Shown here: piece after piece, positions 45,447 to 47,764 of the stretch
Position numbering within the stretch: position 1 is the stretch's first letter
Layout: the number at the start of each line of letters is the position of its first letter
Origin: Paraburkholderia sp. FT54
Lineage (GTDB): Bacteria; Pseudomonadota; Gammaproteobacteria; Burkholderiales; Burkholderiaceae
Assembly (NCBI RefSeq): GCF_031585635.1
Contig: NZ_CP134195.1
Coordinates: 3,162,001 to 3,226,000, forward strand
Length of the DNA stretch: 64,000 nucleotides
Direction: 5' to 3'
Notes under the pieces: model-generated
Databases searched by the model: none
Seen by the model: only the letters and a program-made list of their open reading frames with translations
What the model was told of the DNA's origin: nothing
Translations under genes and position numbers: made by a program

Positions 45447-45526
45447 AGTCGGGGTTTGTTTGTTGGCTACGCCGCGGATTGGTGGTTGGTGTTGCTGTGT
45501 TGGTCTTTTCTTGTTTTCTTGGTGGT

Positions 45527-45752
45527 TTCTTGCTTTGTTAGTGGTCTATTAGCGTTGCCCCTGTGCGGGGCGGCACTTACTTCTCTTTGCCGGCCGCAAA
45601 GAGAAGTAAGCAAGAGAAAGCGGCTCACACCGCTAATTCTTAAGTGGGTCCCCCGCACAGTCACGGCAGTGGTGCATCTGGAATCCGTGTTCTCGCACAT
45701 TCCGCTCTGGTGACAAAGCCGTCATTCTTCCGGCGGCGCTGCGCGCGCCGTC
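45527..45752. repeat. left arm of a large inverted-repeat element
   Basis: About 226 bp that recur in reverse complement at 45931-46057 plus 47507-47610 (the right arm is split by the IS). Identity is high, about 85-90% by eye. Starting at the outer end it contains one 19-bp unit (TTTCTTGCTTTGTTAGTGG), the GTTGCCCCTGTGCGGGGCGG block, a 35-nt hairpin, an AAGCGGCTCA block, the GTCCCCCGCACAGTC block and GGTGACAA. I recall similar sequence between genes in Burkholderia/Paraburkholderia genomes; copy number here cannot be tested. Confidence 0.85.
45576..45610. repeat. 35-nt perfect hairpin in the left arm
   Basis: CTTACTTCTCTTTGC (45576-45590) pairs fully with GCAAAGAGAAGTAAG (45596-45610), loop CGGCC. 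The partner hairpin in the right arm differs at two stem positions, each with a matching change on the other side. Confidence 0.9.
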
Positions 45753-45930
45753 GTGGTCATTCTTCAACCAATCGCTTCGTTTCCTCCTTACGTTTCTTCC
45801 GCGCTGTAGTCCTGTACTCAGCGGCTCGGGGCTCGCGGCATCGCGCCGCGCGACGTGAGGCGCGGGCCATGATGGCCGCGAATGTACACCGGCCCACAGA
45901 AAGTCCCACTGGTTTTGAGTGAACCGCTCC
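45753..45930. other. unique spacer between the inverted arms
   Basis: 178 bp between the two arms. No ORF with coding support, no promoter recognised. Together arms and spacer made a unit of about 670 bp before the IS arrived. Confidence 0.5.
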
Positions 45931-46057
45931 GACGAGCGCGAAGCGCGAGGCGGGAAGAATGAGCGCCTTGTCACCGGCGTGGAATGTGCGGGAGCGCAGA
46001 TTCCAGATGTACCACTACCGCGACTGTGCGGGGGACCCGCTTAAGAATTAGCGGTTT
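45931..46057. repeat. right arm of the inverted-repeat element, inner part
   Basis: Reverse complement of 45626-45752 (GACGAGCGCGAAGC..., TTGTCACC, GATTCCAGATG, GACTGTGCGGGGGACC, TTAAGAATTAGCGG). It breaks off at the IS left end; the rest resumes at 47507. Confidence 0.85.
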
Positions 46058-46109
46058 TGAACTGCACCCCAAAAGTTGGACACCGATCCAACCTTTTGGG
46101 GTGTTTTTC

Positions 46110-46637
46110 ATGACGAAGTACAGTGAGCAGTTAAAGCTGAAGCTGGTGAAGCAGTACGTGGCCGGTTCGGCTGGTGTCGAGGTACTTGCAAAGCGGTATG
46201 GAGTGAGTCGCTCGGTTTTACAGCTGTGGATTTCGGCCTACGAGCAACATGGACGGGACGGACTGCGCAAGAAATTCAGTCACTATGACGCGCAGTTCAG
46301 GATGTCGGTACTCATGCACATGTGGCAGAAGGATTTGCCATACCGGCAGGTGGCTGCGGTGTTCGACATCCGCAGTCCGGGCTGCATAGCGCAATGGGAA
46401 CGCCGGTATCATGAAGGCGGTATCGACGCACTGGCGCCTCGTCCACGATGGCGCCGCAAAACCATGACCCAGCCAGTTCCTGAAAAGCCGACCGAAGACA
46501 GTGCGCCAGATAAGCGCACGCGTGAGCAGTTGCTCAAGGAAAACGAGTACCTGCGCGCGGAGGTGGCCTATCTAAAAAAGCTCGATGCCCTGCTTCAGGC
46601 AAAGAAGCAGGGCGTGCAGAAGAAAAAGCGCAAATAG
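46110..46637 (+). CDS. IS3-family transposase OrfA
   Basis: 175 residues. An N-terminal HTH (EQLKLKLVKQYVAGSAGVEVLAKRYGVSRSVLQLW, read in parts), a second HTH-like segment (YRQVAAVFDIRSPGCIAQWERRY), and a C-terminal leucine-zipper-like coiled coil (REQLLKENEYLRAEVAYLKKLDALL). OrfA binds the IS ends and regulates transposition. A slippery A-AAA-AAG lies at 46574-46580 in frame (CTA AAA AAG); a -1 shift there stays open into orfB, giving an OrfAB fusion transposase. The stop TAG shares one base with the orfB GTG. Confidence 0.92.
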   Translation: MTKYSEQLKLKLVKQYVAGSAGVEVLAKRYGVSRSVLQLWISAYEQHGRDGLRKKFSHYDAQFRMSVLMHMWQKDLPYRQVAAVFDIRSPGCIAQWERRYHEGGIDALAPRPRWRRKTMTQPVPEKPTEDSAPDKRTREQLLKENEYLRAEVAYLKKLDALLQAKKQGVQKKKRK

Positions 46638-47473
46638 TGCAGGAGCTCCGGCAGCACCACCCGATGCCCGCTTTGCTGAAGGCAGCGGGTCTGGCGCGCA
46701 GCACGTTCTATTACCAGTTGAGCGTGCCGGATGCCGGTGAGCGGCACAAGGACCTCAAAACCCGCATCAAGACTGTGTATGAACGCCACAAGGGCCGTTA
46801 TGGCTACCGGCGCATCACGGCGGCGATCCGGCAGGCAGGCCCGAGCGTGAACCACAAGACGGTGCAACGTCTGATGGGAGAACTGAAACTGAAATCGCTG
46901 GTGCGCGCGAAGAAATACCGCTCATGGCGCGGCGAAGTCGGCCGTATTGCGCCGAACCTGTTAAACCGCGAGTTCAGCGCACAGCAGCCCAATCAGAAGT
47001 GGGTGACGGACGTGACGGAGTTCAACGTGCTGGGTCAGAAGCTGTATCTCTCGCCGATCATGGATCTGTATAACGGCGAGATCGTGGCTTATCAGATGAA
47101 CACCCGACCGGTCTTCGATCTGGTCAGCAGCATGCTAAAAAAAGCGCTGGCAAAGCTTGGTCCCCAGGAGACCCCGCTGCTGCATTCAGACCAGGGCTGG
47201 CAGTACCAGATGCCTGCTTACCGGAGGCTGCTGGATCAACACGGCCTGACGCAGAGCATGTCGCGCAAGGCAAACTGCTACGACAATGCGGCAATGGAAA
47301 GCTTCTTTGGCACGCTCAAGGCGGAGTTCTTCCGGCTGAGCAGGTTTGAAAGTATCGACGAGTTGAAGGCTGGCATCAGACAATACATTCACTACTACAA
47401 CCACAAACGCATCAAGCTCAAACTGAACGGGCTGAGTCCTGTGATGTACAGAACCCAGCCCGCTCAAACCTGA
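46637..47473 (+). CDS. IS3-family transposase OrfB (DDE integrase core)
   Basis: 278 residues. After an HTH_21 region (RIKTVYERHKGRYGYRRITAAIR) the rve integrase core has all three acidic residues: WVTDVTEF (first Asp), LHSDQGWQYQMPAY (second Asp) and NCYDNAAMESFFGTLKAE (Glu). Ends with YNHKRIKLKLNGLSPVMYR, typical for IS150 relatives. The GTG at 46637 is a formal start; the active form is probably the frameshifted OrfAB. No sign of decay. Confidence 0.92.
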   Translation: MQELRQHHPMPALLKAAGLARSTFYYQLSVPDAGERHKDLKTRIKTVYERHKGRYGYRRITAAIRQAGPSVNHKTVQRLMGELKLKSLVRAKKYRSWRGEVGRIAPNLLNREFSAQQPNQKWVTDVTEFNVLGQKLYLSPIMDLYNGEIVAYQMNTRPVFDLVSSMLKKALAKLGPQETPLLHSDQGWQYQMPAYRRLLDQHGLTQSMSRKANCYDNAAMESFFGTLKAEFFRLSRFESIDELKAGIRQYIHYYNHKRIKLKLNGLSPVMYRTQPAQT

Positions 47474-47506
47474 ACTCAAACTGTCCAACTTTGCGGGGTC
47501 AGTTCA

Positions 47507-47610
47507 TTTGAGCCGCTTTCTTTTGCCTACTTTTCTTTGCGGCCGGCAAAGAAAAGTAGGTGCCGCCCCGCACAGGGGCAACACTAATAGACCACTAACA
47601 AATCAAGAAA
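47507..47610. repeat. right arm of the inverted-repeat element, outer part
   Basis: Reverse complement of the outer half of the left arm, with hairpin CCTACTTTTCTTTGC-GGCCG-GCAAAGAAAAGTAGG at 47526-47560, then the CCCCGCACAGGGGCAAC block. The hairpin stem differs from the left copy at two base pairs, both compensated. Confidence 0.85.
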
Positions 47611-47667
47611 CCACTAACAAGACAAGAAACCACTAACAAAACAAGAAACCACTAACAAAACAAGAAA
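47592..47667. repeat. 19-bp tandem repeat, four units
   Basis: Four head-to-tail units of CCACTAACAAAACAAGAAA at 47592, 47611, 47630 and 47649, with one variant base or so in the first two. One unit occurs at the matching outer end of the left arm (45527-45545, reverse strand). There is no spacer between units, so this is not a CRISPR. Confidence 0.9.
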
Positions 47668-47764
47668 AAACCAACACCAAAAAGCACCACCCCAAACATC
47701 CGCCAAAAAACCCAAAAAAGCGATAATAGGTACCCCAAAGCGCCGCAGGCAAAAGCAAACTCCA

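Follow-up and report, generated by a model that had tools for sequence, protein, structure and literature searches.

An intergenic element of Paraburkholderia sp. FT54 shares features with two kinds of mobile repeat and with one kind of RNA fold. The element lies in a stretch of 64,000 nucleotides (contig NZ_CP134195.1, positions 3,162,001 to 3,226,000, hereafter the window). REPINs and BIMEs are doublets of REP sequences that occur with REP-associated tyrosine transposases (RAYTs). Like them, the element is an inverted pair of palindromic ends found in many intergenic copies, but its arms are about 240 bp long, its ends resemble pseudoknots, some copies carry cargo, and it shows no link to RAYT presence. 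Miniature inverted-repeat transposable elements (MITEs) and fold-back elements also have long inverted repeats and whole-unit copies and lack a transposase of their own; for the present element, however, no parent transposase was found in the loaded copies read, and no target duplication could be defined at the two loci compared. H-type pseudoknots with a U-rich first loop (L1) in the major groove, as in SAM-II, preQ1-II and telomerase RNA, have the same topology and the same parallel match between L1 and a purine strand. The pseudoknot of the element differs from these in that it is predicted from covariation, is repeated and paired outward, and has no known ligand. Deep-groove crossing of an H-type pseudoknot requires a pyrimidine L1 that matches the purine strand of the second stem (S2) in parallel, and to our knowledge base-triple covariation is seldom seen in natural sequence. 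We consider the element a new variant among dispersed inverted-pair repeats. On balance, we favor the interpretation that the window copy belongs to a dispersed and apparently non-autonomous family of inverted-pair repeats in the Burkholderiales, the ends of which would form pseudoknots with a triple helix and which, as folded RNA, would act as two-way transcript ends.

The window copy consists of two arms that face each other across a spacer, and its right arm is split by an insertion sequence (IS). A previous sequence-only reading of the window had recognized this layout, with lengths of about 226 bp for the arms and 178 bp for the spacer; we measured about 240 bp and 189 nt, with 212 of 242 alignment positions identical and two gap positions (88%) when the IS is skipped. 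The perfect 35-nt hairpin that it described in each arm was recovered (45576-45610 and 47526-47560) and is called S2 here. As also noted there, the window copy has no gene of its own, and no cargo gene was recognized in its list of open reading frames (ORFs). The first stem (S1) joins the loop of this hairpin to a clamp upstream of it. Read outward on either side, the module runs S1 5' strand, L1, S2 5' strand, S1 3' strand, short L3, S2 3' strand and a further hairpin, H1. The 73-nt end module occupies 45557-45629 on the left and 47507-47579 on the right. The parts of the window copy are as follows.

45507..45746, no strand: left arm of the inverted repeat, about 240 bp, 88% identical to the right arm with the IS skipped
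45557..45571, minus strand: H1 hairpin, left copy, outward strand GCCCC-GCACA-GGGGC (sequence comparison)
45576..45610, minus strand: S2 hairpin, left copy, 35 nt, perfect (sequence and folding)
45593..45597, minus strand: S1 3' strand, left copy, inside the hairpin loop, outward GCGGC (read from the sequence; pairing rule from covariation)
45612..45619, minus strand: L1, left copy, outward TTTCTCTT, which matches the S2 purine strand AAAGAGAA in parallel
45620..45624, minus strand: S1 5' strand, left copy, outward GCCGC
45747..45935, no strand: spacer between the arms, 189 nt (ORF list and arm alignment)
45936..46057, no strand: right arm, inner portion, with TTT at its end (arm alignment)
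47510..47629, no strand: right arm, outer portion (arm alignment)
47512..47516, plus strand: S1 5' strand, right copy, GCCGC
47517..47524, plus strand: L1, right copy, TTTCTTTT, which matches AAAGAAAA in parallel
47526..47560, plus strand: S2 hairpin, right copy, 35 nt, perfect (sequence and folding)
47539..47543, plus strand: S1 3' strand, right copy, GCGGC (read from the sequence; pairing rule from covariation)
47565..47579, plus strand: H1 hairpin, right copy

By sequence and covariation, the outward strand of the approximately 73-nt module fits a predicted H-type pseudoknot with an S1 of 5 bp and an S2 of 13 bp. The two window arms differ at five positions between H1 and the S1 clamp. Two of these form one pair at the S2 foot and two form one inner stem pair, in agreement with the compensated changes at two stem pairs that had been noted before; the fifth is the matching base of a purine tract just inside the hairpin. 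On the inward strand this tract reads AAGAGAAA in the left arm and AAAAGAAA in the right; its change is coupled to that of one stem pair, a third linked change that the sequence-only reading did not mention. The window end module folds at z -3.2 to -4.0 on either strand.

Covariation was then evaluated across copies. The 190 distinct arm segments comprised 151 with parsed hairpins and 39 without, and 149 were reduced to 90 distinct outward sequences, 89 of them fully parsed. S1 is perfect in 76 of the 89 parsed sequences, which fall into three allele classes (41, 22 and 13). For 38 of the 90 distinct sequences, 99.5% of the cells are paired and seven pairs have changed on both sides, while slid controls of the same sequences pair at 45-60%. 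None of 500 shuffles reached four of the five covariation measures, and 1 of the 500 reached the fifth. The center of S1 (columns 8-35) contains CG in 17 cases, GC in 12 and UA in 9, with none broken. Other families show S1 runs of 4-6 bp in 18 of 26 contexts, and the mean over distinct cases is 3.60 compared to a highest value of 3.04 in 1000 shuffles. The covariation of S2 and S1 bears out the proposal that the stem is kept rather than the sequence. The companion proposal, that the hairpin is copied as a unit, fails as a complete account: the alleles of S1, L1 and the S2 foot are found in 27 combinations in the 89 sequences, and we reason that unit copying is insufficient because the third segment (L1) mirrors a stem strand, which DNA synthesis cannot template.

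L1 corresponds to the pyrimidine strand of the stem read backwards, and so matches the S2 purine strand in parallel. Taken position by position, this match has the geometry of a putative U.A-U / C+.G-C triple helix. Symmetric stems cannot distinguish a mirror from a direct copy, and only asymmetric stems were counted. Among 79 distinct asymmetric-stem contexts, L1 is a mirror in 67, a direct copy in none and neither in 12. The corresponding mirror/direct/neither counts are 30/0/4 for groups g1, g26 and g30, of which we take g1 to be Paraburkholderia, 15/0/1 for a set that is mostly g28 and g41, and 22/0/7 for other families. Twelve of 21 distinct asymmetric allele pairs are mirrored, compared to a mean of 2.81 and a maximum of 9 in 20,000 permutations. 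The third segment as a direct repeat, which would provide alternative Watson-Crick pairing, was rejected on the same contexts (0 of 79). Covariation recovers both S1/S2 pairing and the parallel L1 of an H-type pseudoknot with a predicted L1-S2 major-groove triplex, with an exception for S1 in the mostly g28/g41 group. The mirror-not-copy allele rule spans several families and is open to immediate in vitro testing.

Mismatches at the S2 foot bear on which strand is folded. In 22 of 23 rows the mismatched pair is G.T on the outward strand, and three further rows are bulged. Solo copies of the module printed for L263-L285 (n = 21) have T.G in 16 cases, T-A in 3, C-G in 2 and C.A in none. The outward strand is favored because the mismatched foot pairs are G.T there, and because the solo copies have T.G and no C.A. 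This evidence does not separate RNA from single-stranded DNA. Separately, some copies from several genera, whether solo modules or arms, hold a similar hairpin-like insert of about 25-30 nt within the loop of S2 (L218, L272, L283, L288, L290 and L291).

The suspicion that this is an intergenic repeat of Paraburkholderia proved correct, and the arms are not confined to the window and were not recognized as remnants of a known transposon or duplicated gene. The search of the same genome suggested by the sequence-only reading found dispersed copies, with 62 matches to the left half and 24 core matches. Within the genus, 128 of 144 genomes contain element matches, ranging from 0 to 500 each, with 247 + 253 in one genome. 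At the family level, matches occur in 56 of 299 genomes, which represent 3 of 25 genera, and at the order level, model R1 matches 60 of 200 genomes and 39 of 109 genera. A reversed-pattern control of the core gave 0 matches in every genome row of the own-genome, genus and family scans. Core matches number 373-500 in four genomes (G129, G057, G151 and G001), while 16 of the 144 genomes hold none. The core, hairpin and third segment are common to the species groups, and the interior and outermost caps are group-specific. All 13 pairs read in G001 have nearly the same length, 582-585 bp between the start of the first core and the end of the second, and copies therefore look like whole units. R1 searches covered 51 loci (11 + 40), of which 18 have full-length matches on both strands; all 18 pairs face outward (14 of 40 and 4 of 11). 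The remaining 33 have full-length matches on one strand only within the stretch examined. By eye, from ORF lists, several copies occupy the same gene junctions in different genomes.

Intact copies favor gene 3' ends. Of 46 intact pairs with both neighbors called, 18 lie between convergent, 24 between codirectional and 4 between divergent genes, compared to 14, 88 and 10 of the other neighbor pairs in the same loci (n = 112); 15 intact pairs with an uncalled neighbor were left out of this count, and at least two divergent calls (L046 and L069) are doubtful, a galU-like gene on the other strand having been passed over. Gene names in this work (glk, bestrophin, aceF, lpdA, argR and astC) were assigned by eye or taken from the earlier reading. 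At the glk junction, the element is present in 13 of 30 loci fetched. A terminator-like stem lies downstream of glk in 0 of the 13 element loci versus 7 of the 17 others, and at a second locus in 0 of 5 versus 9 of 25. The two loci together give 0 of 18 element loci versus 16 of 42 element-free relatives. Orthologous loci were compared, as had been advised. At both of them, genomes with and without the element have wholly different sequence following the upstream stop codon, and therefore no target duplication is definable.

The DNA outside H1 has a characteristic composition. Over 137 arms, a set that includes own-genome copies but not the window arms by themselves, the T content of the outward flank is 12% at 0-20 nt and 4-7% at 20-80 nt. 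The flanks are A/C-rich, and in 58% of the 137 the excess of C over G lies above the 95% point of the null. No intrinsic terminator, defined as a G+C-rich stem directly followed by a T run, was found after H1 on the outward strand. The A/C-rich, T-poor tail would fit Rho-type termination. The corresponding flank in the window is as follows.

45447..45556, minus strand: outer flank, from the upstream stop codon to H1; T-poor on the outward strand

From the observed repeat, layout and covariation, we infer that the outward strand would work as folded RNA, with a physical triple helix. A transcript from either side would end in the folded module and then the A/C-rich, T-poor tail. The element would be a two-way transcript end, either a stop or a block to 3' exonucleases, that replaces the usual terminator at gene 3' ends; we propose that it acts in both directions because the unit is symmetric. 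Copies would spread as whole units, with cargo genes and insertion sequences later collecting between or inside the arms. The copies would provide a natural series in which to study the spread of intergenic repeats and their possible replacement of terminators.

Several observations weigh against this interpretation. S1 runs of 2 bp or less were found in 8 of the 26 other-family contexts, and the mostly g28/g41 group has S1 runs of 0-3 bp, no better than shuffled sequences. Twelve of the 79 asymmetric contexts fit neither L1 rule, 7 of them in other families, and the model used to choose the other-family loci itself includes the L1 consensus. The triple helix is a prediction from covariation only, and alleles are shared by descent, making the allele counts non-independent events. 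With respect to gene arrangement, codirectional intact pairs (24) outnumber convergent ones (18), in a non-random sample of loci with gene calls from a simple codon model that has known slips (L046, L069). In 7 of 8 single arms between codirectional genes, the module is oriented antisense to the gene upstream; two of these cases are the same solo locus, seen in two species. Solo modules likewise run antisense to their operon (aceF-like and lpdA-like genes) in 4 of 4 loci read (L302-L305). These antisense arms and modules speak against a plain sense 3'-untranslated-region role. Finally, the terminator contrasts take no account of relatedness, and some of the 17 'element-free' glk loci hold apparent element remnants.

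The outward strand of the end module is related to an Rfam family, RF02421 (Bp1_684). The window match (45499..45586, minus strand) scores 35.7 bits versus a gathering score of 44, and the window copy is not counted as a member; nothing in the window stretch was found by Rfam at the gathering score. RF02421 exceeds its gathering score in 3 of 20 loci given (L048, L088 and L100), and the first eleven order-level R1 loci have no Rfam match at E 0.01. In a family scan, 58 of 200 genomes and 5 of 25 genera have RF02421 matches at E 0.001 or better, with 49 genomes over the cut-off. The best matches are solo modules, and one such module is kept at a single junction in several genera. The aligned RF02421 model differs from the end module in that it begins inside the S2 3' strand, and so is without L1, the S2 5' strand and S1. 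The B. pseudomallei sequence that it represents, Bp1_Cand684 (Bp1_Cand684_SIPHT), is reported as positive by reverse transcription PCR (RT-PCR) in that species (Khoo 2012, PMC3521395). It is described there as a single RNA candidate, and the words 'repeat' and 'pseudoknot' are absent from the main text. No open-access PMC paper contains the element core or any of six hairpin strings, and the titles and abstract openings of open-access literature on Burkholderia/Paraburkholderia repeats and RF02421 include no description of the repeat. A pseudoknot in RF02421 was likewise not found in the parts consulted of the open-access literature, which omits most subscription papers. If correct, our interpretation would extend an Rfam family of unknown function and join RF02421 to a large repeat family.

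We next considered whether the folded module matters as single-stranded DNA, as the recognition signal of an HUH-type or other nuclease in a REPIN-like mobile unit, with any effects on transcripts being incidental. Whole-unit copies of uniform length, outward inverted pairs and 0-500 matches per genome all agree with such a unit, and DNA, too, can form pyrimidine triplexes and G.T pairs. The sequence-only reading had suggested a REP-like element mobilized by a remote nuclease. The REP-like layout holds, in that an inverted palindrome pair lies in intergenic DNA, but neither RAYT linkage nor co-occurrence was found. Y1_Tnp was matched in 140 of 141 same-genus genomes, and all 16 that lack an element match are among them; the sole genome without Y1_Tnp (G146, 84% complete) has element matches, and in the FT54 genome more than 100 kb separates the intact Y1_Tnp copy from the nearest core match. 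There is no correlation between RAYT presence and the element, and RAYT mobilization was rejected. A transposase carried between the arms was likewise set aside: the loaded copies that were read, a minority of all copies, hold assorted insertion sequences or cargo, and no single transposase recurs among them. They have no gene in common, and no mobilizer was found among them. The preservation of a solo module at one junction in several genera and the RT-PCR detection of Bp1_Cand684 (PMC3521395) argue further against a purely DNA-level role, which we regard as unlikely. GTAG and CGTC are tags named for REP sequences, next to a palindrome of 20-40 nt; the paper that names them (PMC3733652) contains none of three Burkholderia terms.

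Alternatively, each end could be an RF02421-type small RNA gene, transcribed outward from the element interior so that antisense RNA reaches into the 3' ends of its neighbors. An RT-PCR-positive RNA candidate (PMC3521395) would fit this model, as would the antisense position of the solo module (4 of 4 loci) and of codirectional single arms (7 of 8). The promoters, however, would have to lie in the interiors, which differ between species groups, and we consider the model improbable. It is very improbable that the covariation is a by-product with no structure selected, in which template switches that correct palindromes maintain the perfect hairpin while conversion between copies spreads a few alleles: quasi-palindrome correction is a known mutational process that would keep S2 perfect, but template switching can make neither the mirror repeat (67 of 79 contexts) nor the loop-clamp pairing of S1 (columns 8-35: CG 17, GC 12, UA 9, none broken), and 27 allele combinations among 89 sequences argue against one haplotype.

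Some copies carry cargo. Two elements of the FT54 genome carry P0001-like genes, and a 150-aa gene without a Pfam match lies between the arms in L045 (3832-4284) and L053 (3567-4187, minus strand). In the cargo-gene tree, 26 of 27 in-arm rows form one clade (100/96), and the other is L127, with a core on one side only. By comparison, 60 of 80 related loci have no arm core within 3.5 kb. P0001 was rejected as a mobilizer for this and further reasons: it has no Pfam match and its NCBIfam match (E 0.021) is far below the cut-off, and the model of its homologue P0005 is mostly helical (mean pLDDT 67.9). Loci of g28, which we take to be Burkholderia, have two matches facing outward, with both arms in 8 of 9 loci read and one arm in L300, near a contig end. 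Cargo in g28 includes a PAAR gene in L294-L296 (below the Pfam cut-off in L296) and a Tae4-type antibacterial gene of the type VI secretion system in L295 and L296. By eye, L301 has ORF starts similar to those of L294-L296. We put forward only tentatively the broader view that these are order-wide dispersed elements with ends that would fold outward as RNA H-type pseudoknots, containing a major-groove helix of 7-8 triples with base-triple covariation across genera, and that they would be portable two-way transcript ends as well as parking sites for cargo (the 150-aa gene in Paraburkholderia, and PAAR/Tae4).

Insertion sequences are found within arms as well. As the sequence-only reading had noted, the window element is interrupted by one.

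46058..47506, plus strand: IS3-type insertion sequence, 1449 bp, within the right arm, with TTT/TTT on its sides (ORFs, Pfam and arm alignment)

This IS contains orfA and orfB with Pfam HTH and rve domains, and its terminal repeats are 84% complementary. Two FT54 copies without an interior have an IS481-type insertion at the hairpin loop (L042 3120-4340 and L056 3020-4290). The L042 transposase matches Pfam LZ_Tnp_IS481, and L056 shares its ORF start. The hairpin loop may be an insertion hot spot.

The right outer flank of the window copy contains one further feature.

47586..47671, plus strand: direct repeats spaced 19 nt apart, in an outer flank rich in A and C (repeat family D1)

Several copies have short tandem repeats in an outer flank or in the spacer, among them L055 (3040-3100) and L206 in addition to the window copy (47586-47671).

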